A stretch of 64,000 nt of DNA from Mycolicibacterium lutetiense. GTDB taxonomy: Bacteria; Actinomycetota; Actinomycetes; Mycobacteriales; Mycobacteriaceae. The notes beneath the pieces were generated by a model, which ran no database searches, was not told the DNA's origin, and saw only the letters and a program-made list of their open reading frames with translations. The stretch is taken from positions 3,782,001-3,846,000 of the forward strand of contig NZ_JAGIOP010000002.1 of assembly GCF_017876775.1 (NCBI RefSeq). Reading direction: 5' to 3'. Shown one piece after another: positions 41,956-52,545 of this stretch. Every line of letters begins with the position of its first letter. Position 1 is the first letter of the stretch. The position numbers were made by a program, and so were the translations under genes.

Positions 41956-42000
41956 AAAAAAAGCAAGGCCCAGACCGGATTTCTCTGGTCTGGGCCTTGC
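41956..42000 (-). terminator. intrinsic terminator downstream of the tRNA-Pro remnant
   Basis: A perfect 14-bp stem (41963-41976 with 41987-42000), followed on the minus strand by a run of seven T (41956-41962). It directly follows the 3' end of the tRNA-Pro fragment, so it is the original tRNA terminator. It may also stop kinase transcription from the other side. Confidence 0.85.
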
Positions 42001-42050
42001 TGCACTGTCGGGGTGGCGGGATTCGAACCCACGACCTCTTCGTCCCGAAC
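41964..42050 (-). repeat. attachment site, left (tRNA-Pro 3' half plus terminator)
   Basis: This 87-bp stretch recurs at 51025-51111 with two mismatches; 42001-42050 is identical in both. Read on the minus strand the core runs from the anticodon loop (TTCGGGA, anticodon CGG) through the T-arm GGGTTCGAATCCC to the acceptor end CACCCCGA of a tRNA-Pro. The 5' half of the tRNA is absent, so no functional tRNA is made here. Confidence 0.88.
42008..42050 (-). pseudogene. tRNA-Pro(CGG) 3' half
   Basis: Anticodon loop, 3' anticodon stem (GACGAAG), variable loop, complete T-arm and 3' acceptor strand are present. Base 42051 onward does not match a D-arm or 5' acceptor strand. It is the integrase target left by integration. 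Confidence 0.75.
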
Positions 42051-42153
42051 TCCACGTCCTGGGCGTTTGATGATGCCTCGCGCGTTGGTCTAGTTGTATG
42101 AGTGCAGGTCATAGCGTTGGCAGTGTTGGCTGTAGATGATCGCTCGTGAAACT

Positions 42154-42173
42154 ACTGCGGGCCAATTGCGGGC
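42154..42173 (+). other. integrase arm-type site pair, left arm
   Basis: ACTGCGGGC (42154-42162) and ATTGCGGGC (42165-42173), 11 bp start to start, 104 bp from the core end. The same pair occurs at 50978-50997 and, diverged, at 51215-51234. Bases 42051-42279 otherwise hold no gene I can support. Confidence 0.6.
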
Positions 42174-42279
42174 GGGGCTTGCCGAAACGGCAAGGAGAGT
42201 TGCCACGGTCACTTCGTCGGATTTGACGCCGCGGCTGGGCTGCTCGATCGCTCAGGCAGCCCAGCCAACGGAACGGCTG

Positions 42280-42375
42280 CTACCAGAACAGCATTGAGTC
42301 GCACACCCACTCGGGGAACTCGCCCCGGCAGATCGGGCAGTCGCCGTGCTGGGCGTAGTACTCGATGGCGGCCAT
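42280..42375 (-). CDS. 31-aa CxxC mini-protein downstream of the capsid gene
   Basis: A very small gene with a near-ideal ribosome-binding site (AAAGGAGG, spacing 4). Its product, MAAIEYYAQHGDCPICRGEF followed by PEWVCDSMLFW, has a CPIC zinc-knuckle pair and a third cysteine near the end. It is the last leftward gene of the element and is separated from the capsid gene by a structured non-coding region. Function unknown; a small nucleic-acid or protein-binding zinc knuckle is plausible. Confidence 0.6.
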   Translation of the reverse strand: MAAIEYYAQHGDCPICRGEFPEWVCDSMLFW

Positions 42376-42513
42376 ATGGCCTCCTTTCCAAATAAGTAGA
42401 GCCCGCCGTGTTGCGGCCTCTATTCCTTACTTGTTCCGGAGCGCACGAATTACAGGGCGTGGCACAAACCCGCAGGTCCGGGGGGTGGGCCACGATCGTG
42501 ACAGGAACCCGCC

Positions 42514-42630
42514 ACCTGACCCCGCCCCAGTCAGGAAGCGCGATCTGTACGGAGTCTGGGAGATTACCGATATATCGCTAGATTCCCCAGACCCGTACAC
42601 ACGGAGACTCCTGACTGGGGCGGGGTCAGG
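42514..42630. repeat. 117-bp rod-like hairpin, perfect 22-bp arms
   Basis: Arms 42514-42535 and 42609-42630 are exact complements (22/22). Inside, GTACGG/CCGTAC and TCTGGG/CCCAGA pair again, and the apex holds the palindrome CGATATATCG (42568-42577). It occupies the 455-bp gene-free gap between the capsid gene and the 31-aa gene. It is flanked by CACGATCGTG (42490-42499), GGTCAC/GTGACC (42642-42658) and a C8G6 run (42660-42673). It could be a structured RNA, terminator, origin or packaging site. Confidence 0.8.
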
Positions 42631-42830
42631 AAGTTGGTGCTGGTCACGAAGTGTGACCGCCCCCCCCGGGGGGTGTGGTGTGCGGTCCGGCGCAGGTATC
42701 CACTCGGGCCTCATCGCCGTCATGGTGGGTCCTTGCCCGAAGAAAGGTTCGGAAGGCGGGTTTGACGCCGGACCGCGTATCCGTGACCGGGCTGCCTGAG
42801 CGACCGAGCCGCCCAGCCACGGAGGTCTCA

Positions 42831-44243
42831 CTACGCCGTGGTGGCGATGTTGAGCAGTCGGAACGCCTGGGGCATCAGGACGTCCGAGCCGGTGCGCCAC
42901 CACAGCAGGGCGCCGCGGCTGCCGTTGGGCCGGCGGTTGGCGCCGACGAGGTGGTCGACGCGTTCCATGGTGGCGCCGATGCGGTCGACGATGAGGAACT
43001 GTGACCAGTCGCCGTAGGCCAGCAGGTAGTTACTGGCAGTGGCCGCCGCGTTGAACGTGCCGTCCATGTTGGACTGTTCGTGCACCAGGCGACCGAGCAG
43101 TGAGGGCGGGTTGTCCTGCAGGCTCGGGAACTTCAGTGCACCGTTGGTGGTCTCCAGCTGCCGCAGCGTGTTGAGGATCGCCAGATTGGCAGCCCATCGC
43201 GCATTGGCCTGGAACCGAGGCGGCAAGGCGTTCTGCACCGCGTACACGTCACCGGATGCCAGGGTCTCGGCGACACCTGGGGCTACCAGCGGGACGGTGC
43301 CGGCCGAGGCCACCAGCGAGGTGATGAACCCGGTGGGCTCACCGGAACCGGAACCGGTGGTGTAGGCGGCATCCGAGAGCTGCAGCGCGGAATCCACCAG
43401 GATCTTCTGCAGCTCGGAGATGAAGTTGAGTGCGTCCTGTTCCACCTCGAAGCTGTAGGGCACGAACGCGCTACCGCGGTGCACGGGCACGCTCGGGTCA
43501 TCGAGGGTCGGTGTGCCGTCCGAGGATTCCTCGAACTCGTCGCGCCACTCGGCTGTCACGCCGGCCGAGGAGACACCGTTCCACGAGTTGGTGGCGATGG
43601 TCTCGACGCGGGCGATCTGGCGCAGGCTCGACGTCGAGCCGTTGTTGCTCAGCAGGATCGCCGGGTCCAGCGACAGCGGCACCATGGCATCACCACCGTT
43701 ACCGGATCCGCCGATACCGAGGGCACGCAGTTCGTCGCGCAGGGCCTCGACGCGGCGGTAGGCGTCAGCTTCCTCGGGGGTCCAGCGCAGGTGTCCGGTC
43801 GAGCCGCCGGTGTACCACTTGGCGAAGGCACGTTCATAGGCGTCTGAGCCGGCCGCGACGGCCCAGCGGGCAGCCCAGGTTTCGCCGTTGCCCACCAGGC
43901 GCTCGACGGTCTCAGCGCCACCGGTGTCGAGGGTGCCAGCCTTGATCTTGGCGTCAACCGTGCGCAGCGCCGCATCGCGGGTGCCGGTCAATGCTGGGGC
44001 CTGGTCCTCTCCGATGCCGCGGTCAATGCGCAGCCGGCCTCCACCGCGAGCAGCCTTGGCGATCTCGGAGGCACGGTCCATGTGATCCACGTGCTTCTCC
44101 AGATCGTCGAACTCCGAACGCAGCTCGGCGAACTCGACATCTTCAGCCTTGCTCATACGGTGCTTTGCGTTCAGCGCCTCCATCCGTTGGTGCGCTTCTG
44201 CCATACGGGTGACCGCTTCGGAGCGGGTCAAATTCACAAACAT
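42831..44243 (-). CDS. HK97-type phage major capsid protein
   Basis: A 470-aa capsid protein. Residues about 1-75 form a charged helical region (MAEAHQRMEALNAKHRMSKA, EFDDLEKHVDHMDRA) like the HK97 delta/scaffold domain. The body has SLDPAILLSNNGSTSSLRQIARVETI, VEQDALNFISELQKILVDSALQLSDAAYTTGSGSGEPTGFI (core TTGSGSGEPTGFI), WAANLAILNTLRQL and LLAYGDWSQFLIVDRIG, all typical of the phage_capsid family. ATG at 44243; upstream frame lacks support. No protease gene adjoins, so maturation of the delta domain would need a helper's or host's protease, or not occur. Bases 44244-44493 upstream hold no convincing gene. Confidence 0.92.
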   Translation of the reverse strand: MFVNLTRSEAVTRMAEAHQRMEALNAKHRMSKAEDVEFAELRSEFDDLEKHVDHMDRASEIAKAARGGGRLRIDRGIGEDQAPALTGTRDAALRTVDAKIKAGTLDTGGAETVERLVGNGETWAARWAVAAGSDAYERAFAKWYTGGSTGHLRWTPEEADAYRRVEALRDELRALGIGGSGNGGDAMVPLSLDPAILLSNNGSTSSLRQIARVETIATNSWNGVSSAGVTAEWRDEFEESSDGTPTLDDPSVPVHRGSAFVPYSFEVEQDALNFISELQKILVDSALQLSDAAYTTGSGSGEPTGFITSLVASAGTVPLVAPGVAETLASGDVYAVQNALPPRFQANARWAANLAILNTLRQLETTNGALKFPSLQDNPPSLLGRLVHEQSNMDGTFNAAATASNYLLAYGDWSQFLIVDRIGATMERVDHLVGANRRPNGSRGALLWWRTGSDVLMPQAFRLLNIATTA

Positions 44244-44493
44244 GGTTGTCCTCAATTCAGGGAATGCCAGGACACCGGCAGCACGCGCCACGGGGCGGCC
44301 TGGTCAACAAACAAGGGGGATTCGTCGGGGTGCTCGGCTGCGCCATCAGGGGCGCCGAACTGCGCGACGTGAGATGAAACCCGGTGCGGGAGCTTGCCGG
44401 TTCACCGCGGGCCGAGGATCTCGGGCCACTGCGAAGCGGTCATGCTCGCATACCGTCAACGCTGATTCTACTGCCATGACACGACGTTTCGCG

Positions 44494-44796
44494 TTAGCGC
44501 GTGTCGCTGGTCCACTCGTGCGGCACCGTGTCGGGCACCGCGGCCTCGGCTATGAACTCCCGCTGGATCGGGCCGTCGTCTGCCAGCACGTCACGGTGCA
44601 CCATCGCCAAGGTGCGCCCGCCCCACCGGAACTCGAGTAGGTCGTCCTCGGTGCTGGGGTGCATCAGCACGCCGTGCTGACCGGTGGCATGGCACCAGGC
44701 GATGCGTTCGGCGCGGTCCGCCGGGTCCAGGCCGGCCACGGCTTCTGTCAGGATCGCCTGCACGCGGGCCTGGGTCTTCTCGTCGTCTGTGGTCAC
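44494..44796 (-). CDS. hypothetical protein of the satellite element
   Basis: A 100-aa acidic protein with GTG start at 44796 preceded by GAAAGG. It contains a helical N-terminal half (TQARVQAILTEAVAGLDPADRAERIAWC) and a beta-rich half (LLEFRWGGRTLAMVHRDVL). No family recognised. Bases between it and the next gene upstream contain no other feature. Lies between the capsid gene and the WhiB-like module. Confidence 0.6.
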   Translation of the reverse strand: MTTDDEKTQARVQAILTEAVAGLDPADRAERIAWCHATGQHGVLMHPSTEDDLLEFRWGGRTLAMVHRDVLADDGPIQREFIAEAAVPDTVPHEWTSDTR

Positions 44797-44887
44797 GGTT
44801 GAGCCTTTCAAATAGTTTGCTGGAGGGGACAGATTGTTAGCTGTGAGCGGATCGAACGCGGCGGAACGGGATCCGAACCCCTGCAGG

Positions 44888-45082
44888 TCAGCGGCTTGTG
44901 GGTGTGGAAAATGTCGGAGAGAGATTCGCCATAGGAGGCGGAGGGGTCGCCCCTCGGACGATCCTCGCGGCGCCCCTGCCCCCCTCCCACCTGCGGTTTT
45001 GCCTCGACCAGGCAATCGCGGTCCTCATCACCGCGGCTGCAGGGTTTGCTGGGCTGACCTTCGGGTTTGCTGGTGTGCTCAT
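44888..45082 (-). CDS. small basic protein coupled to the WhiB-like gene
   Basis: A 64-aa frame whose ATG (45082) overlaps the WhiB-like stop in ATGA, as with the other overlaps in this gene chain. Product is basic and Pro/Ala/Arg-rich (MRTAIAWSRQNRRWEGGRG), with a Ser/Thr-rich end. No family recognised; support is the coupling and location only. Confidence 0.4.
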   Translation of the reverse strand: MSTPANPKVSPANPAAAVMRTAIAWSRQNRRWEGGRGAARIVRGATPPPPMANLSPTFSTPTSR

Positions 45083-45369
45083 GCTGTGGCCTTTGGTGGT
45101 CGGCCTGCCTTGGGTTGGATGATGCGGCCGGCGATCACGCCGGGTGGTCGCTTGCTCGGTGTGAGGGTGTCGAACCATGTCTGGCACGACGCCAACGCTG
45201 GGCACCGGCGGCACAGTCCGAGGGCCTGGGCGTGACGCTGCTCGGTGGTCTCGGGCGCCTCGTGCTTATCGGCCTCGTCGAAAAGATGATGCTTGCCTCG
45301 ACACCGGGCGCCGGGTAGTGCTGGGGCGGCACCGACAGCAGCGAGCAGGGTGCTGAGTTGGTCGGTCAC
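45079..45369 (-). CDS. WhiB-like iron-sulfur protein (phage type)
   Basis: A 96-aa protein with four cysteines in the Wbl pattern: GARCRGKHHLFD, then about 35 residues, then GLCRRCPALASC (CxxCxxxxxC). PGVIAGR stands where Wbl proteins have the Gly-rich turn, and a basic RPPKATA tail follows as in DNA-contacting Wbl proteins. Expected to bind a 4Fe-4S cluster and act on sigma-A-dependent promoters. Mycobacteriophage WhiB homologues can block host WhiB2 and superinfection. GTG start overlaps the ATPase stop by four bases. Confidence 0.82.
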   Translation of the reverse strand: MTDQLSTLLAAVGAAPALPGARCRGKHHLFDEADKHEAPETTEQRHAQALGLCRRCPALASCQTWFDTLTPSKRPPGVIAGRIIQPKAGRPPKATA

Positions 45370-47132
45370 GCTGTCTCCTCGGAGTCTTGGACGATGCGCC
45401 AGCGGGTTTCGCGCCCGTTGTCAGGGTCAGGCTCGGAGATGACGAGGCCGGTGCGCAGGACGGTTCGGCTGGCTGATTCGGCGTTGTGACCGGCCGCCTC
45501 CGCGGCGCGTGCAAAGTCGTCCTTGTTCACGAACTCGTTATTTGCTGGAAGTGTGCGGATGTAGTCACGCGCCCATTCCGAGAACGATTGGCAGGGCGTG
45601 CCGGTGCCGTCGATGGAGTAGATGACGGTGCCGCCTTCGCGGTTGACGCGGACCATGTCATCGTTCTTGGTGACGGCGTTGGTGATGGACGCCTTGGTGT
45701 GGCCGGCTGCTTTCCCGGCGGCGTGCACAGCTAACGAAGTGATGGTTGTTTCGCCGGCTGCTCGACGTTCCGCTACGAGCGCTGCCACCAATTCGGGCGC
45801 CGACAGCTTCACACTGTCAGATTCGCCCGACCTGCGGGAATCCAGTTCGGTGACAGTAGCCGAAGGTACACGGTGTACTTCGGGTACACGGTCAATGACC
45901 TGCGGTTCTGTGGGGTGTACCTCTGGGACCCGTGTACCTTCGCCACTCAACCCGTATTCGACTCCGTTCTTCACCGAAGTCACGGCAATCATGCTTCCGG
46001 CAGCTAACTCCGCGATGGCCGGGTCGAAGTGGTCGCGCAGGTCAGCCTTCAACTTCCTACGAAGATCGTGACGTGCAAGCTGACCGTCACGTTCAAGCCA
46101 TCGAAGTATCGACTTCTTGGCTCGGTCAAGCTTGTGATCTGAGATGAACTGTTCTCCGGCCGCACGACTCATAGCCCGCTCACGGGCCTTTGCTCGTGCG
46201 GCCTGACGGTCGTATTCGAGCACGGTTGCACGGGTCGCGTCCGACTGAGCCATGATCGCCTCGGACAGCTCCCAGTCGCGTGCTGAGACGACCATCCGGT
46301 GGTCGAGGATCGCCAACGCCGCGGCGACCTTGAGGCGGGTCAGGGTCCGGTGGCCGTCGATGGCGTCGACCTCCCCGCGCTGGTTGGCCAGCAGTCCAGC
46401 GGCGACGTACTCGGCGATATCCGGGGTGCCGTACTGGAGAATCACCGGCTTGTCCTTCAACGCCCAATCCGGCAGGTTCGTGTCCAGTACGTGGTCAGGC
46501 TCGGGGCCGGGCGTGTCGGGGATAGTCGGATCGGTCACCGATCCCCACACGACGCGTTGCGGTGTCCCACCCGACACGTCATCGAGGATGACCGCAGTGT
46601 GGCCGTACTGCGCGCTGATAGACAGACACAGCCTGTACGAGTCGGCGGGCACTGACCGTGTGGTGGCCGAGGATGCACCCTTGCTGCCCAACCGATCACC
46701 AGTCAGTCCGGCCTTGACGGCTGCGAGGGTGTTGTTCTCCCGACCGGATGCCAGCGCAGTCAGGTGGTCGATCTCCGACACCGTGAACAGCGCGCGGGTG
46801 ATGCGGTCCTCGGGATCCTTCGTTTCCTTGAACAGCTCGTGGATACCTTGACCGGAACCAAGGCCTTCCTCGTGAATGTCGGCGGACCACAGGAGGCGGG
46901 CGAGCTTGTCGGTGACCCCTTTACCGGAGCCGGACCGGCCGAGGAGCACGATGGCCATATTCAGCGATGCTGGCGCTGGCGGGCCGGGGAGCATCACACG
47001 GTGGCTGGTGGACGCGATTACCCGCAGTAGGACCGCGAGCAGTAGCGCCCACGGTGCGACGTAGCGGGCGCGGGCCCACTGGTGGATCAGTTTGAGTTGG
47101 GCGGTGGCCGACCAGAATTCGTCGTCGGTCAT
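45366..47132 (-). CDS. P-loop ATPase/helicase-like replication protein
   Basis: A 588-aa protein. Residues about 1-310 form a P-loop domain: Walker A LLGRSGSGKGVTDKLARLL, Walker-B-like ALFTVSEIDHLTAL, then LSISAQYGHTAVILDDVSGG and a GHRTLTRLKVAAALAILDHR helix. This resembles DUF3987/primase-helicase proteins of phages. The C-terminal part has winged-helix-like repeats (SILRWLERDGQLARHDLRRKL; ITNAVTKNDDMVRVNREGG). It follows the prim-pol gene with a 4-bp overlap, so the pair likely drives element replication. Confidence 0.75.
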   Translation of the reverse strand: MTDDEFWSATAQLKLIHQWARARYVAPWALLLAVLLRVIASTSHRVMLPGPPAPASLNMAIVLLGRSGSGKGVTDKLARLLWSADIHEEGLGSGQGIHELFKETKDPEDRITRALFTVSEIDHLTALASGRENNTLAAVKAGLTGDRLGSKGASSATTRSVPADSYRLCLSISAQYGHTAVILDDVSGGTPQRVVWGSVTDPTIPDTPGPEPDHVLDTNLPDWALKDKPVILQYGTPDIAEYVAAGLLANQRGEVDAIDGHRTLTRLKVAAALAILDHRMVVSARDWELSEAIMAQSDATRATVLEYDRQAARAKARERAMSRAAGEQFISDHKLDRAKKSILRWLERDGQLARHDLRRKLKADLRDHFDPAIAELAAGSMIAVTSVKNGVEYGLSGEGTRVPEVHPTEPQVIDRVPEVHRVPSATVTELDSRRSGESDSVKLSAPELVAALVAERRAAGETTITSLAVHAAGKAAGHTKASITNAVTKNDDMVRVNREGGTVIYSIDGTGTPCQSFSEWARDYIRTLPANNEFVNKDDFARAAEAAGHNAESASRTVLRTGLVISEPDPDNGRETRWRIVQDSEETA

Positions 47133-47863
47133 GCGGATGCCTTCCGTTGGGCGCTTTGGATGGTCTGTTGGATCTCGTGGGCACCGAGGCCGATGCTGTG
47201 GGCTGCTGCGGCGAGCGCGGAGTACACGGCAGCTGGCGCTTGGTCGGCTGCGGCGCGTGCTGCGGCCCAGAACAGGACGCCGTTCCTATTGCCTGGCTGC
47301 GCCTCGGAGACGCTGCGCACCAGCCCGTCCCAACGATCTCGGTCTTCAGAAGGTCGAGATCTGATCTCGACCGTCTGGACCGGTGAGAAGGTCGGTTGTG
47401 CGATCAGTGCCCAGATATGCGTGGGGCACTGGGCAATAGGGGCGTCGCGGTGCAACCGGTAGGGCTTCTGAGTGACCGGGTGAATGCTGCCCGGCGCGAC
47501 GAGATAGCCACTGCCGCCGGCCTTGACGTCGATGCCGGGAACACCTTGGACCTTGCCCCGCACCGGACCCGACACCCGGTAGTACAGGTGCCATCCGCTT
47601 GCGCCGGTCTGCACGCATAACGTCGCGTGTTCGGGCCGCAACTTGAGGGCTGCGACACTGCCACCGTGTCGCGGGTCGACGTCGAGGGCGATCACGCCGG
47701 GTTGTGTGACACCCCAATTGCACTGAGGCCAGCGACGTGCCCATGATGCGATCACCTGCGGGTCGCGGGTGAAGTCCTGCACCCCGTGCTTGGTCAACGG
47801 AACCTTGCCGTCGAGGGGGCCGATCGCGAACCCGTGCCCCAGCATCACGTCGAGGTCAGTCAC
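47129..47863 (-). CDS. bifunctional DNA primase/polymerase (prim-pol)
   Basis: A 244-aa prim-pol domain. Seen: an N-terminal GFAIGPLDGKVPLTKHGVQDFTRDPQVIASW, catalytic DxD in VIALDVDPRHGG, TGASGWHLYYR and the conserved IDVKAGGSGYLVAPGSIHP, with the catalytic histidine. A short helical tail follows. It makes primers for element replication. GTG start overlaps the upstream gene, and its stop overlaps the ATPase gene; the two may act as a split primase-helicase. Confidence 0.88.
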   Translation of the reverse strand: MTDLDVMLGHGFAIGPLDGKVPLTKHGVQDFTRDPQVIASWARRWPQCNWGVTQPGVIALDVDPRHGGSVAALKLRPEHATLCVQTGASGWHLYYRVSGPVRGKVQGVPGIDVKAGGSGYLVAPGSIHPVTQKPYRLHRDAPIAQCPTHIWALIAQPTFSPVQTVEIRSRPSEDRDRWDGLVRSVSEAQPGNRNGVLFWAAARAAADQAPAAVYSALAAAAHSIGLGAHEIQQTIQSAQRKASA

Positions 47864-48030
47864 CGGCCTACCTCCTCAAGTTCGGCGCGTAGCGCGGTGG
47901 CAGCGAGCTCCGATAAGCAGTTGAGGACCTGCTGGCATTCGGCGGCCGTCCAGCGTTCCGGCGGTCGCATGTCTAAGGCGCAATGGATCCGGTCGAGTAG
48001 GTCGGCGATCGCGTCGTTGTCGTCAGGCAC
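47860..48030 (-). CDS. small helical protein of the satellite element
   Basis: A 56-aa acidic helical protein, MPDDNDAIADLLDRIHCALD... The GTG at 48030 is chosen over upstream frames because GGAGG lies 5 bases before it. The start overlaps the DUF6011-like gene by 8 bp and the stop overlaps prim-pol by 4 bp. No family recognised. Confidence 0.55.
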   Translation of the reverse strand: MPDDNDAIADLLDRIHCALDMRPPERWTAAECQQVLNCLSELAATALRAELEEVGR

Positions 48031-48187
48031 GGTCACCTCCGCACCTGGGGCCGACGCCGCGGGCGACGGACTTCGGGCTGACCAGCCAGTGGCCGCAGAC
48101 GTTGCAGCGCACCGCAATCCGGACCTCATCGAGCGGAGTACCCGCACCGGTGCTGCCGCGGGTCTCCATATTCGTTGCGGGTGTCAC
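48023..48187 (-). CDS. DUF6011-like zinc-ribbon mini-protein
   Basis: A 54-aa protein with VRCNVCGHWLVSPKSVARGVGPRC. This matches the pattern of DUF6011 (CxxCGxxLxxPxSxxxGxGPxC) seen in actinophages. Three of four expected metal ligands are cysteine, with His in the usual G/RxL region. The GTG at 48187 forms GTGA with the preceding stop; an internal ATG at 48169 is an alternative. Probable nucleic-acid or protein adaptor; function unknown. Confidence 0.6.
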   Translation of the reverse strand: MTPATNMETRGSTGAGTPLDEVRIAVRCNVCGHWLVSPKSVARGVGPRCGGDRA

Positions 48188-48693
48188 CGGTGCCGCCGGA
48201 CGTTCCCGGTGACGGTGCGGCGGTGCAGGATGCCGGCCAACGCTTCCCACACGGCTTGCGCCTCGTCAACCGTCCAACTGCGGGCGGGGACCTGCACCAG
48301 GAGTGTGCGGATTCCGCGCTGAATGCCGCCGAGCTGGTGATCGCGCAGGGTGCCGTCAGCCTTGCAGTCCGGGGCATGTCCACCGATGGAGCCGCAGCAC
48401 TGACGTGTTGTGCTGTCGACCTGCCAGGCCCGATCGGCCCAAGCGTCATCGGCGGCCTGGTGTTCGGTCTGGATCTCGGCGGCGGCGAGCTGGTCGGCGG
48501 CCCGGTCGAGTGCGACCGCGGCCCGCTTGAGGTGGCAAATCCCGGTCGTCAGGTCTGCGCAGGCGAACAGTGGGGCATCGGTGGGCAGCAGGTCCAAGAT
48601 GGCGTTGCCGGTGCGGCGCAGTTCGTCGATGGCGCCGGTGAGCTGGTCAAGCTGCTGGGCTACCGGTACGGGGCCGGCGGTGGGTACTCTCAC
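48184..48693 (-). CDS. hypothetical satellite protein
   Basis: A 169-aa protein, GTG start with GAAAGG before it. A helical N-terminal half (VAQQLDQLTGAIDELRRTGNAI; CHLKRAAVALDRAADQLAAAEI) is followed by a cysteine cluster (RQCCGSIGGHAPDCKADG) that could bind metal, and a Trp-containing helix (WTVDEAQAVWEALAGILHRR). The last helix resembles that of the 56-aa neighbour (ERWTAAECQQVLNCL), suggesting duplication. No known family. Confidence 0.6.
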   Translation of the reverse strand: MRVPTAGPVPVAQQLDQLTGAIDELRRTGNAILDLLPTDAPLFACADLTTGICHLKRAAVALDRAADQLAAAEIQTEHQAADDAWADRAWQVDSTTRQCCGSIGGHAPDCKADGTLRDHQLGGIQRGIRTLLVQVPARSWTVDEAQAVWEALAGILHRRTVTGNVRRHR

Positions 48694-48707
48694 TGGAGAG
48701 CCTTTCT

Positions 48708-48872
48708 CTACTTGGTGGTTGAGTGGTTCGGATCGGTCCCCGCTCGGTGCGCTAACACCGGGATCTCGGGGGCCGTTCTCATATCGGGGGTGTTGTCGTC
48801 GTCGACCAGCCCGCGGTCGTCGAGGGCGTCGCGGTCGAGCTGGTCGACGTTCGGCCGGCTCATGTCGTCCAT
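48708..48872 (-). CDS. 54-aa acidic protein after the excisionase gene
   Basis: A frame starting at ATG 48872, directly adjoining the excisionase stop. The product begins MDDMSRPNVDQLDRDALDDR and is very acidic (many Asp). It could be a DNA-mimic or anti-regulator type protein, but that is speculative. A ribosome-binding site is not clear; translation may be coupled to the excisionase. Confidence 0.5.
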   Translation of the reverse strand: MDDMSRPNVDQLDRDALDDRGLVDDDNTPDMRTAPEIPVLAHRAGTDPNHSTTK

Positions 48873-49082
48873 CTACGCGACTTCCGGGCTGGTGCCGCCG
48901 CGCCTGGTGGCCGCTTCCTGCTCCGCGATCCAGCGCTCAACCTCGCTGCGCCGGTAGACAACTCGCCTTCCGAGGGAAAACGAGGCCGGTCCTTGGTTCG
49001 TGCTCCGGAAATACCGAAGCGTCCCGACCGGAATCCCGATCATCTTCGACACCGCTGGTGTGCCGATGATCTCGTCGTCCAT
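48873..49082 (-). CDS. excisionase / AlpA-type MerR-like HTH protein
   Basis: A 69-aa winged-helix protein: GTPAVSKMIGIPVGTLRYFRSTNQGPASFSLGRRVVYRRSEVERWI. This is the classic short excisionase layout. It would bend attachment DNA and favour excision by the adjacent integrase. First leftward gene after the regulatory switch; its minus-strand -10 (TATGAC) abuts an operator-like palindrome. Confidence 0.85.
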   Translation of the reverse strand: MDDEIIGTPAVSKMIGIPVGTLRYFRSTNQGPASFSLGRRVVYRRSEVERWIAEQEAATRRGGTSPEVA

Positions 49083-49103
49083 GACAAACTCCTTTCAGTC
49101 ATA

Positions 49104-49117
49104 CTGCATGAGTGCAG
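49104..49117 (-). promoter_or_regulatory. repressor operator at the leftward promoter
   Basis: CTGCATGAGTGCAG, an inverted repeat. The same 14-mer occurs on the other strand at 49175-49188 (15/16 identity when extended by a base each side). It abuts the excisionase -10, TATGAC. Confidence 0.65.
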
Positions 49118-49151
49118 CGAGGCTGCATCCACACAGTAACGATAAATCCCT

Positions 49152-49162
49152 GTTGCTGCAAC
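49152..49162. promoter_or_regulatory. third palindrome in the switch region
   Basis: GTTGCTGCAAC, a perfect palindrome around a central T, sharing the GCTGCA core with the flanking operators. Possibly a weaker repressor site. Confidence 0.35.
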
Positions 49163-49174
49163 CAACGCTGTACG

Positions 49175-49188
49175 CTGCACTCATGCAG
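49175..49188 (+). promoter_or_regulatory. repressor operator over the repressor's own start codon
   Basis: CTGCACTCATGCAG is the exact reverse complement of 49104-49117. It covers the ATG at 49183 and overlaps a -10-like TACGCT (49171-49176), so binding would shut off the repressor itself. Confidence 0.65.
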
Positions 49189-49770
49189 CAAGGTGGCACC
49201 GAAGGACCGGGCGTGCCGTACTGGGCGCTCGGCGCAAGTCAGTTCGGTAAACGAGTGCGCGCACAACGGGAGGGGGCCGGGTTCACGCAACGAGAACTTT
49301 CCGAGAACTTGGCCGAGCTAGGGGTGAAGCTCGATACGTCCGCGATTACTCGGATAGAGAACGGAAGCAGGGAACCGCGGCTAAAGGAAGCTGCCGCGAT
49401 CGCACACGCTCTCGGGGTTAGCCTTTCCGCGCTAATTCACTTCGATGAGAATCCGATCAGCGCCCTATTTTCCGCCTATGAGGCGTTGAACATCGCCACT
49501 CAAGATTTGGATCGAGCGGCGGGCCGGGCTTATTCCGCTGCAGACGCCCTCCAGACGGTAGTCATCCGTTCCGATGTCAAGGCTGAGGTAGCTCAGCAGG
49601 CTCCTACGCTAGATCTTGGGGTGGTTGTGGAGCGGTGTTCGGATGCGATTGACCACATCGAAGATGTGCACGCTTTTGTGGGCCTGCTGAATTCCATTTT
49701 GGAGAGAATTGAGCGGATTCCCGGATTTTCGGACGAGATCGAGATGAGTTTCGATGAGTCAGACACGTAA
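49183..49770 (+). CDS. XRE-family repressor of the satellite element
   Basis: A 195-aa regulator. HTH region FGKRVRAQREGAGFTQRELSENLAEL ... LDTSAITRIENGSREPRLKEAAAIAHALGVSL. A helical C-terminal half follows (LNIATQDLDRAAGRAYSAADAL; VVVERCSDAIDHIEDVHAFVGLLNSI), with no peptidase motif, so it is not a LexA/CI self-cleaving type. ATG 49183 lies 7 bases after TACGCT, suggesting a leaderless mRNA. It overlaps the integrase gene by 17 bp. Confidence 0.85.
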   Translation: MQQGGTEGPGVPYWALGASQFGKRVRAQREGAGFTQRELSENLAELGVKLDTSAITRIENGSREPRLKEAAAIAHALGVSLSALIHFDENPISALFSAYEALNIATQDLDRAAGRAYSAADALQTVVIRSDVKAEVAQQAPTLDLGVVVERCSDAIDHIEDVHAFVGLLNSILERIERIPGFSDEIEMSFDESDT

Positions 49771-50989
49771 CCGCCGGGCCGGTGTCGAGGACCGCTGGGC
49801 GGACCTGACGAAGCCGCGCCAGGACCGCAACGAAGACGGCTCACCGATGTTCGATGCGAGAGGCGAGCCCGTGATGACACACCGACCCGTCAAGTACGGC
49901 AAGGGATCTCGCTGGCGAGCGCGCTACGTGGATTCCAGCGGCAACGAGCACGAGAAACTGTTCACCCGCAAGGCCGACGCCAACAGCTGGCTTGATGACA
50001 TCACCTCAACAATCGTCACCGGTACCTACGTCGCACCGAACGCTGGCACCGTGCCAGTGGGGGAGATTCATCAGCAATGGCTCAAAACGCAGGCACACGT
50101 TAAGGATTCAACGAAAGCGGCACGAGCGTCAGCGTGGACTGTGCACGTGCAAAGCCGCTGGCAAGACGTAGCCGTCGCCGAGGTTCAGACGTCTGCGATC
50201 AGGGCGTGGGTCACCGAACTTGCAGAGGGCGCCGCAGCTCCCACAATCGAGAACGCGCTGGGTGTCCTGCGTATGGTGCTGGCCCTGGCGGTCGAGGACA
50301 AACGGATACCGCGCAACCCGTGCGATGGGGTGAAGGCGCCGCGGCGGAAACACTCGGTGCGGGCGTACTTGACTCACCAGCAGGTCGCGGAGCTGGCCGC
50401 AGCGATGGACCGTGACGCACTGGTGATCCGGTTCCTGGCGTACACGGGTTTGCGGTACGGGGAGATGGCCGCGCTGCGCGTGCAGAACTTCGACATGCTG
50501 CGCCGCCGGGTCAATATCCGCGAGTCGGTGACCGAGGTCGTCGGCAAGCTCACCTGGTCCACGCCGAAGAACCACGAACGCCGCTCGGTGCCGTTCCCGC
50601 GGTTCCTCGTTGACGATCTCGCTGCCCAGATGAAGGGCAAGCGCCGCGAGGACCTGGTGTTCTCAGCGCCGGCCGGCGGAGTGCTGCGCATTGCGACATT
50701 CCGCACCCGCGTATTCAACCCGGCTGTCGACAAGCTGCGCGGGCTCGATGAGAACGGGAAGCCCACGACCGACTGGCCACGGCCGACGATGCACGATCTG
50801 CGGCACACTGCAGCGAGCTTGGCGATCAGTGCGGGGGCCAACGTGAAAGCCGTGCAAACGATGCTCGGACACAAGTCCGCGGCACTGACGCTGGACACCT
50901 ACGCGGACCTGTTCCCGGACGATCTGGAAGCAGTCGCGGACGCCTTCGACGCGGCGGTGGCGGCACTGCCGAAAACTACTGCGGGCTAA
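49754..50989 (+). CDS. tyrosine-family phage integrase
   Basis: A 411-aa integrase. The N-terminal arm-binding region (KGSRWRARYVDSSGNEHEKLFTRKADANSWLDD) is followed by a core-binding domain (VGEIHQQWLKTQAHVKDSTK). The catalytic domain has Arg in AYTGLRYGEMAAL, HDLRHT (HxxR), LGH and the nucleophile Tyr in LDTYADLF. All catalytic residues are present. Its last codons and stop contain one pair of the arm-type repeats (50978-50997). It sits 36 bp from the right repeat, as expected for an integrase next to attP. Confidence 0.95.
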   Translation: MSQTRNRRAGVEDRWADLTKPRQDRNEDGSPMFDARGEPVMTHRPVKYGKGSRWRARYVDSSGNEHEKLFTRKADANSWLDDITSTIVTGTYVAPNAGTVPVGEIHQQWLKTQAHVKDSTKAARASAWTVHVQSRWQDVAVAEVQTSAIRAWVTELAEGAAAPTIENALGVLRMVLALAVEDKRIPRNPCDGVKAPRRKHSVRAYLTHQQVAELAAAMDRDALVIRFLAYTGLRYGEMAALRVQNFDMLRRRVNIRESVTEVVGKLTWSTPKNHERRSVPFPRFLVDDLAAQMKGKRREDLVFSAPAGGVLRIATFRTRVFNPAVDKLRGLDENGKPTTDWPRPTMHDLRHTAASLAISAGANVKAVQTMLGHKSAALTLDTYADLFPDDLEAVADAFDAAVAALPKTTAG

Positions 50990-50997
50990 CTGCGGGC
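50978..50997 (+). other. integrase arm-type site pair, right arm
   Basis: ACTGCGGGC at 50978-50986 and at 50989-50997, 11 bp apart start to start, overlapping the integrase stop codon. The same arrangement as on the left arm. Confidence 0.6.
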
Positions 50998-51024
50998 CAC
51001 TGCCGAACCCGGCTGCTGATACGA

Positions 51025-51111
51025 CAAGGCCCAGACCGGATTTCCCTGGTCTGGGCCTTGATGCACTGTCGGGGTGGCGGGATTCGAACCCACGACCTCT
51101 TCGTCCCGAAC
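51025..51111 (-). repeat. attachment site, right
   Basis: Matches 41964-42050 at 85 of 87 bases; 51062-51111 is identical to 42001-42050. The terminator stem is kept but the T-run seen on the left is missing, so this copy is the element-derived mimic. The 5' half of tRNA-Pro does not follow here either. Confidence 0.85.
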
Positions 51112-51234
51112 CACGCCACCTGGGGTTTTGATGACGTTGGGTACGTTGGCCCGCGTAAGTTTCCCAGCTCAGCTGTATTGGGTGGGTTGGCGCGCGCAGG
51201 AGTCGCGAAAATCTACTGCGGACTGCCTGCGGAC
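51112..51234 (+). other. second attP-like arm outside the element
   Basis: Sequence after the right core resembles that after the left core (CACG..CCTGGGG.TTTTGATGA versus CACGTCCTGGGCGTTTGATGA). It carries ACTGCGGAC (51215-51223) and CCTGCGGAC (51226-51234), again 11 bp apart and 104 bp from the core end. It looks like the start of another related element. Confidence 0.6.
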
Positions 51235-51375: not shown

Positions 51376-52545
51376 ATGGATATCGAGGCGCTTCGTAACA
51401 GCCCGATCGGACGGTTGGTGCCAATCGGGGGTCATGACCCCCGATTAGGTGAGGCGTACGAATACGTCGCCTACGTGCCGGACCCCCTTCCTGCGGACCT
51501 CAAACTGGAAGCTCAGACCTATGCCGCGGTGATCGACGCCGCGGCGGCGATGGCACGTGCCGACCAAGCGTCTTCATTGCTGCCGAACCCGAGCCTGCTC
51601 GCTCGGCCGGCCACTCGTCGGGAAGCGGTAAGTACCTCCGCGCTGGAGGGCACCTACGCGTTCTTGGCGGACGTTTTCGAAGCAGACTTTCTCGAAGCTG
51701 AGGAGCTCACCAGTTCGGTCAGTGAGGTCAGGAACTACGTCACCGCAGCTGAGCGGGCATACGAACTCGTGGCCGAAGGGCAACCGATATCGGTTCGGAT
51801 GCTCGAGGATTTACAGCGCGAACTCCTGCGTGGGACCGCCAGTGATGGCTCGCACGCGGGCAGCGTCCGCACCACTCAGGTTTTCATCGGACTCGGCAAT
51901 CGGCGTGTCACGTCGGCTCGGTTCGTGCCGCCTCCGGCTGATCATCGGCTGCTCGACGGGTTGCGGCTGTGGCAGGACTGGATCCGGGAACCCAGCGCAA
52001 TACCGACGATCATCCGAGTAGCGGTCGCGCACTATCAGTTCGAGACCTTGCACCCGTTTCATGACGGCAACGGCCGGCTGGGGCGTCTCGTCATGGCGCT
52101 GCAGTTGATGAGTGCTGGTGAACTGCGTTTTCCGGTCCTGAACATCTCACCGTGGCTGGAGCAACACCGCACCGAGTATCAGGACGGATTGTTGCGCGTG
52201 TCGCAGACCGGTGGATGGGACAGCTGGGTGTGCTTCATTTCCGCGGCCATCCATGCCGAGGCCTTGGAAGTCGTTGAGCGAGTGGACAAGCTCCTGGCGC
52301 TCCGTGAGGAATTTCAGGTGATCTTGCGCGGAGCCAAAGGGGTCTCGCTCAGGATCGCTGACGACCTGATCGGTTACCCGATGATCACGGCGTCGGCTGC
52401 GGCAGCGTTGCACGGTGTTTCCTACCAGGCAGCGAACACCGCCATCACAAAATTGGTGGACAAAGGAATTCTGCGCCAACGAACTTCGGGCCGGTACGAC
52501 CGAATATTTCAGTGTGACGGTGTGCTCGCGGCTCTAGAATACTGA
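51376..52545 (+). CDS. Fic-family protein with inhibitory motif and C-terminal winged helix
   Basis: A 389-aa Fic enzyme, which transfers AMP or another nucleotide to target hydroxyls. An N-terminal Fic_N region (LRNSPIGRLVPIGG, DPLPADLKLEAQTY) contains the auto-inhibitory motif TSALEG [(S/T)xxxEG], a class-II layout. The core motif HPFHDGNGRLGR is complete. The C-terminus has a winged helix (MITASAAAALHGVSYQAANTAITKLVDKGI). ATG 51376 has GAGG 8 bases before; a GTG at 51367 is the alternative. Repeated boxes upstream suggest autoregulation. It probably works as a self-limited toxin or housekeeping AMPylator. Confidence 0.9.
   Translation: MDIEALRNSPIGRLVPIGGHDPRLGEAYEYVAYVPDPLPADLKLEAQTYAAVIDAAAAMARADQASSLLPNPSLLARPATRREAVSTSALEGTYAFLADVFEADFLEAEELTSSVSEVRNYVTAAERAYELVAEGQPISVRMLEDLQRELLRGTASDGSHAGSVRTTQVFIGLGNRRVTSARFVPPPADHRLLDGLRLWQDWIREPSAIPTIIRVAVAHYQFETLHPFHDGNGRLGRLVMALQLMSAGELRFPVLNISPWLEQHRTEYQDGLLRVSQTGGWDSWVCFISAAIHAEALEVVERVDKLLALREEFQVILRGAKGVSLRIADDLIGYPMITASAAAALHGVSYQAANTAITKLVDKGILRQRTSGRYDRIFQCDGVLAALEY

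Follow-up and report, generated by a model that had tools for sequence, protein, structure and literature searches.

The element and its genes

The stretch analysed here, which we call the window, is 64,000 nucleotides long and comes from Mycolicibacterium lutetiense (contig NZ_JAGIOP010000002.1, positions 3,782,001 to 3,846,000; genome G000 in our set). At positions 42001-51111 it holds an integrated element of 9.06 kb, bounded by direct repeats of 87 nt. The element encodes a homologue of phage major capsid proteins, and beside the capsid gene lies a short region in which two sequences resembling the cohesive-end (cos) site of certain mycobacteriophages face each other. This cis element did not appear in the list of features of a preliminary description, which had been made from the letters of the sequence. 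It suggests that the element is a satellite packaged by a helper phage.

From the right end inwards the genes are those for an integrase, an XRE repressor, an excisionase, small proteins, a primase-polymerase (prim-pol), an ATPase, a WhiB-like protein, a protein of 100 amino acids and the capsid (Table 1). The integrase, XRE repressor, excisionase, prim-pol, ATPase, WhiB-like and HK97-type capsid genes named in the preliminary description are all confirmed by matches of Pfam, PHROG and TIGRFAM type.

Table 1. Features of the element, in window coordinates
Feature	Position	Strand	Basis or remark
Left attachment (att) repeat	41964..42050		terminator-like hairpin and 44-nt 3' fragment of tRNA-Pro(CGG)
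Possible 31-aa CPxC mini-protein	42280..42375	-	strong ribosome-binding site AAAGGAGG upstream of ATG
Inverted double cos region	42480..42690		two inward-facing putative helper-type cos sites, 210 bp, between capsid and left repeat
cos arm A	42511..42565	+	profile match; profile built with this arm
Palindromic centre CGATATATCG	42568..42577		in satellites; absent from phage cos regions examined
cos arm B	42576..42634	-	profile match; profile built with this arm
HK97-type major capsid protein homologue, 470 aa	42831..44243	-	PF05065 E 8e-37; phrog_10 E 9e-42; TIGR01554 E 2e-43
Conserved 100-aa satellite protein	44494..44796	-	homologues in 7 loci (L040 and L062 are the same contig)
WhiB-like protein	45079..45369	-	phrog_9926 E 3e-5
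P-loop ATPase	45366..47132	-	phage primase/polymerase profile phrog_28894 E 2e-41; 4-nt overlap with prim-pol
Primase-polymerase	47129..47863	-	Prim-Pol PF09250 E 3e-26
Small open reading frame, 56 aa	47860..48030	-	gene call
169-aa satellite protein	48184..48693	-	homologues in L040/L062, L059, L066, L091, L150
54-aa satellite protein	48708..48872	-	homologues in L047/L085, L066, L091, L111
Excisionase	48873..49082	-	PF12728; phrog_66 E 2e-7
XRE-family repressor	49213..49770	+	PF01381 (HTH_3) E 3e-10; likely start GTG 49213
Tyrosine integrase	49754..50989	+	phrog_1 E 4e-64; PF00589
Right att repeat	51025..51111		borders next island

An inverted pair of phage-type cos sites

The two arms and their centre form a nested palindrome, the predicted DNA fold of which has an energy of -46.1 kcal/mol, against a mean of -19.3 for 200 shuffled sequences (z -10.7). 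We considered that it might be a genomic repeat and rejected this, since it occurs at a single place in its own genome.

When the palindrome was compared with 50,697 phage records there were eight matches at E up to 1, all of them in Mycobacterium phages. The strongest are those to dwieneke, ridax and mika, at E 5e-6 to 2e-4. The matches to Brujita (two records), Babsiella (two records) and Island3 reach E 0.1 only, yet each starts exactly at base 1 of the phage genome. According to Table 1 of PMC3029335, the Island3 genome has a determined 11-base 3' extension, which makes base 1 a cohesive end. The extended arms were then aligned with the end junction of the Brujita genome. Arm A (107 nt) has 79 identical columns out of 105 and a score of 71; for arm B (119 nt) the figures are 72 out of 93 and 70. 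The maximum among 500 mononucleotide shuffles of each was 31. Scores against Babsiella, Xula and dwieneke are 65-71, and alignments to the locus L134 give 68/81 identical columns for arm A and 76/96 for arm B. The likeness spans about 100 nt, including a run of G upstream, and so extends beyond the core.

In dwieneke the match lies directly before a gene pair whose second member fits our custom large-terminase profile, and arm A has one match in the whole record. At E 0.001 arm A has no match in the records of Brujita, Xula, QueenHazel, Babsiella and Sbash, where the cos site is split over the record ends. The phage cos site is single, whereas the satellite has an inverted pair around CGATATATCG. 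Both arms are, judging by these alignments, homologues of phage cos junctions, placed in inverted arrangement and kept in relatives.

Conservation of the cos pair and of the backbone

With a strict search the exact cos core was found in two of 396 Mycobacterium genomes, our own and that of M. brisbanense (G236, the holder of the L091 sequence), in both as an inverted pair; a reversed control pattern had no match in the 396. The exact core is also present in four viral contigs, one copy in each (arm A likewise matches each of them once), and in 4/4 it stands upstream of genes that fit a terminase profile. Three of these contigs are identical at the cos region and may be one phage. The core in L134 agrees with the satellite arm at 21/21 positions, and this locus also encodes a terminase, a portal, a protease and a capsid that groups with those of the Babsiella/Sbash clade.

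In L091 and L114, as in the window, the palindrome is situated downstream of the capsid. A covariance model built from these three pairs matches six of the 396 genomes, namely its own sources (G000, G236 and G119, the last with a broken capsid gene) and, in addition, G303, G221 and G285. In G303 (L148) the same backbone carries a different capsid, of 279 amino acids, with no protease match at the locus, and the palindrome is kept; that it is retained although the capsid differs suggests a role in packaging. This capsid has a weak match to our custom 'portalB' profile (E 6.5e-5), and the suggestion that it is a portal was dropped because Pfam, PHROGs and NCBIfam call it a capsid. G285 (L150; E 1.8e-4) has an element in which no capsid is recognized and an inverted pair whose alignment suggests a likeness to the cos site of L135. 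In G221 (L149) the palindrome matches but no element was recognized. The centre CGATATATCG is retained in L091, L114, L148 and one copy in L052. The latter, a satellite with a tape measure gene, carries this cos type twice in direct orientation, the copies being 8.6 kb apart (L052:3534-3586 and L052:12138-12190). That the palindrome is common to all satellites is unsupported, as the covariance model finds only its own three among 53 sources, any further match lying at E 0.4 or higher. What we report on cos holds for a single lineage and, on the strength of a weaker alignment, for L150.

Backbones related to that of the element are found at tRNA-Pro(CGG) in three other genomes, with 42-88% protein identity for integrase, excisionase and ATPase. 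For L091/L151 of M. brisbanense the values are 80%, 88% and 57%, with 57% for the capsid; for L064 of M. chelonae they are 76%, 81% and 42%, with 54% for the capsid; and for L148 they are 80%, 65% and 78%, the last for 395 of 588 residues. In none of the three is the integrase frame interrupted within the compared part. These relatives favour the earlier view that we are dealing with a satellite and not with the remnant of a prophage. After the M. chelonae element, L064:11370-11730 matches a WXG-motif gene of the prophage prophiGD12-2; secreted-toxin systems occur in 22% of mycobacterial candidate phage-inducible chromosomal islands (PICIs), according to PMC10654092.

Attachment site, neighbouring island and lesser genes

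The 87-bp flanking repeats of the preliminary description are present, identical at 85 of 87 positions, and are nested in a longer repeat of 125 nt with 87% identity. A hairpin at 41962-42001 overlaps the left one. The element had also been placed at tRNA-Pro, which holds in so far as the repeats contain fragments of tRNA-Pro(CGG), and does not hold for an intact gene at this place: the flanks have only the 44-nt 3' fragments, and ARAGORN finds no tRNA gene in the window. The intact gene (G000:C2:3906050-3906124) lies outside it, 73 kb to the right of the right repeat, and adjoins a second integrase gene (3905378-3905902). Since the intact gene is that far away and stands beside another integrase, the satellite and a 73-kb island are arranged in tandem at one attachment site. 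The island extends from window position 51112 to G000:C2:3906124, with its own integrase by the tRNA gene, and its gene content was seen in part. At its edge, directly to the right of the satellite, window positions 51376-52545 encode a SoFic-like Fic protein (PADLOC, E 7e-89).

Within the element, the P-loop ATPase is likely the replicative helicase, a role that we infer, and it has no match among solved structures. The WhiB-like protein scores 19.2 bits against the Pfam WhiB family, below the cut-off of 23.6. The AlphaFold2 (AF2) model of the 100-aa protein has two long helices and three strands, with a predicted local distance difference test score (pLDDT) of 75. The possible mini-protein has no PHROG match. 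No defence family was recognized among nine element proteins, a set that excluded the excisionase, the repressor and the integrase.

Absence of recognizable packaging genes, and the capsid family

There is no protease, terminase, portal or tape measure among the PHROG matches of the element's proteins. When the element was translated in six frames and searched with profiles built from relatives, which very diverged genes could escape, no match to a protease, a terminase (small or large), a portal or a tape measure came up; the same profiles do detect protease and small terminase in relatives. Nor is there a protease remnant in the gap at 44243-44494, the best tblastn matches (E about 0.01) being scattered across the element. 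The earlier statement that terminase, portal, protease and tail genes are missing stands. So does the reliance on a helper deduced from it, which the helper-type cos sites now back.

Homologues of the capsid occur in 18 of 148 genomes of the genus, our own included, and at 57 loci of GTDB contigs, with full prophages among both. In our inventory of 77 loci, small elements have either small terminase, protease and capsid, or protease and capsid, or a capsid without protease; the inventory also holds full prophages with large terminase, portal, protease and capsid. The protease-less label was assigned from this inventory and then verified in six frames, no protease being found in any of 21 loci besides the window, although the ends of most of these loci are undetermined and the contigs of L064, L075 and L090 stop soon after the capsid. 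Neither a tape measure nor a small terminase is present in 18 of the 21; the other three (L055, L090, L103) have a tape measure gene, and L103 a small terminase too. The claim that the element is more reduced than those described has therefore to be given up. Mycobacterial candidate PICIs, too, are defined by an integrase and a capsid, and SaPIbov5 has a single capsid homologue.

A capsid is paired with a tape measure protein in six actinobacterial loci (L052 and L055 by PHROG; L090, L103, L111 and L112 by custom profile), with no portal or large terminase nearby according to custom profiles. Tape measure genes in satellites have already been published (PMC12987554).

A quick tree was made from 64 capsids, 22 of them protease-less, 20 with a protease and 22 from phages, leaving out 16 duplicate or fragment loci and L059, which has no capsid-profile match. 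On this tree the protease state of the non-prophage loci requires 12 changes. The capsid of the window belongs to a set of 33 of the 42 non-prophage capsids (Shimodaira-Hasegawa-like approximate likelihood ratio test, SH-aLRT, 97), while eight sit among phage capsids and L087 stands apart. Its nearest neighbour is L060, where a protease gene adjoins. The 12 changes, and the protease beside this nearest capsid, mean that being protease-less is a recurrent state and not a single accident. Among phages, 94 records have a match to the window capsid; the best 11 of the 94 are mycobacterial (Sbash, ridax, Mycofy1, Xula, QueenHazel, dwieneke, mika, Babsiella). Identity to capsids of the Brujita/Sbash type is 34-35% over 99% of the length.

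Comparison with known satellites

Candidate PICIs of Mycobacterium, phiRv1 and phiRv2 included, are defined in PMC10654092 by an integrase and a major capsid protein, both of which the element has. Some of them are situated at tRNA genes and some have replication genes (PMC10654092); that paper's main text contains neither the word 'cos' nor the word 'helper'. The element is without protease and small terminase, whereas relatives of its capsid often keep a protease and some a small terminase. Both genes are retained in phiRv2. The plan of phiRv1 and phiRv2 has integrase, excisionase, prim-pol and capsid in about 9-11 kb, as the element does; the protease and small terminase of that plan have no six-frame match here.

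Like SaPIbov5, a Staphylococcus aureus pathogenicity island (SaPI) of the cos type (PMC8569155), the element has a lone HK97-fold capsid homologue and no protease identified. The helper of SaPIbov5 has a prolate head, and its capsid homologue, Ccm, forms only pentamers, the rest of the shell being helper protein (PMC8569155). Features of a cos-type SaPI with Ccm are present in the element, namely a helper-type cos, recognized by sequence only, and a helper-type capsid homologue without a protease of its own. Unlike SaPIbov5, it belongs to another host, has two inverted copies of cos, and is known from sequence alone. Its capsid has 34-38% identity to those of possible helpers, compared with 24% for Ccm.

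Capsid-forming PICIs (cfPICIs) have, by definition, a satellite-encoded capsid in common with the element. They encode their own portal, terminase and connectors. In the element no portal, large terminase or connectors were found, the connectors being sought via PHROGs only. StCI-301 of Streptococcus thermophilus has, as here, two putative cos sites in one satellite; they are of 13 nt with one mismatch each, and their arrangement is not stated in the accessible part of PMC13376191, according to which satellites of this type lack structural genes. Our literature search, with subscription papers mostly outside its coverage, found no inverted cos pair in satellites.

The genome has a second satellite-like element (L059, G000:C2:3313500-3324000), with a large terminase, portal, scaffold, capsid and head-tail adaptor, a related integrase and no tail genes recognized. 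It resembles the plan of phiMmcs_1 (PMC3986857).

Possible explanations

We consider it probable, at about three chances in four, that the element is a helper-dependent satellite of the cos type packaged by a Brujita-like phage, and that its capsid homologue redirects the prolate head. The packaging itself, the identity of the helper, the size of the head and the contribution of the second cos copy are inferred. The element would integrate at the 3' end of tRNA-Pro(CGG). Upon helper infection it would be excised by its own integrase and excisionase and replicated by its own prim-pol and ATPase. Packaging would follow once terminase from a Brujita-like (Cluster I1) phage had recognized the inverted cos pair downstream of the capsid gene. 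The heads of Brujita, Island3 and Che9c are prolate, about 2.5:1. The capsid, a divergent homologue of that of the helper, would most likely co-assemble with such a head or redirect it into a small shell, for which the protease and portal of the helper would be used. It most likely does the same kind of job as Ccm of SaPIbov5.

A further suggestion, which we make tentatively and hold at less than even odds, concerns the arrangement of the sites. Inverted paired helper cos sites may be a distinct satellite packaging signal, either permitting bidirectional loading of terminase from one spot or acting by titration, by which a tiny genome would win against a 47-kb helper. Such a signal would be kept while capsid modules are exchanged, and would have arisen for at least two cos types, one in this lineage with Brujita and L134 and the other in L150, whose arms are like the L135 cos.

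Several observations count against packaging by a Brujita-like helper. Sbash aligns poorly, its scores being 27 for arm A (shuffle maximum 29) and 42 for arm B (shuffle maximum 26). Capsids of Gordonia phages are nearly as similar to the window capsid (33.7-33.9%), so that capsid similarity alone cannot name the helper. The AF2 model of the capsid, at pLDDT 47, is too poor to judge function, and the protein could be unused or act otherwise; among solved structures, PDB 9lw6 is closely related to it (profile E 3e-153). The sister element L091 retains a protease, and the loss here could therefore also be decay. In our own genome a lone cos with the exact core is missing, hence no resident helper is visible there. 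The pair region of L150 has no match in the phage collection, nor have the regions after the capsid in L061, L068 and L078 a cos match there; that of L064 matched the WXG gene and no cos. For L040 there is no cos among the 8 of 14 matching records listed, seven of which match on one stretch of 42-51 nt (annotated as attP in three) and Tortellini elsewhere. With no cos match seen for these five post-capsid regions or for the L150 pair region, we cannot claim the design for the family as a whole.

The preliminary description had proposed that the element builds its whole shell from its own capsid protein, with nothing but portal, terminase and tails supplied by a helper. The capsid is indeed full-length, L148 has the same backbone with another capsid type, and relatives bearing a protease exist. 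In the element, however, no protease was found, and Ccm, the closest mechanistic precedent, cannot form shells alone (PMC8569155); we regard a shell of its own as rather unlikely. It is also conceivable that the inverted palindrome serves chiefly as an origin of replication, or else as a decoy that hinders the helper, its cos likeness sequestering terminase. Its strong symmetry and the satellite-specific centre CGATATATCG would suit either role, and interference with helpers is common among satellites. But a likeness of the arms running through about 100 nt, upstream G-run included, exceeds the core, and an element without a terminase of its own would need a packaging site. We consider an origin or decoy unlikely.

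Finally, the element might be the decayed derivative of one full prophage, with packaging and tail genes lost. The absence of the protease, the presence of the capsid family in full prophages (L053, L056 and others) and the 8/42 non-prophage capsids among phage capsids could be taken that way. Against this, the window capsid stands inside the set of 33 non-prophage capsids on the quick tree, related backbones recur at tRNA-Pro in other genomes, the protease state needs 12 changes on that tree, and no protease remnant was found in the element. Broken phage genes and a lack of satellite relatives, the marks by which such decay would be known, were not found, and this origin seems very improbable to us.

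Meaning of the finding

Capsid-only elements were already known; the novelty here is that two helper-type cos sites, facing inwards, lie downstream of the capsid. According to PMC10654092, the induction of candidate PICIs by particular phages has so far no experimental demonstration. The cos match names a specific helper group for this lineage, phages known to grow on M. smegmatis. If the reading is correct, the prolate head of the helper would be turned into a small shell by a lone capsid homologue, as in the known case of SaPIbov5, and the inverted cos pair would be an unusual packaging signal.

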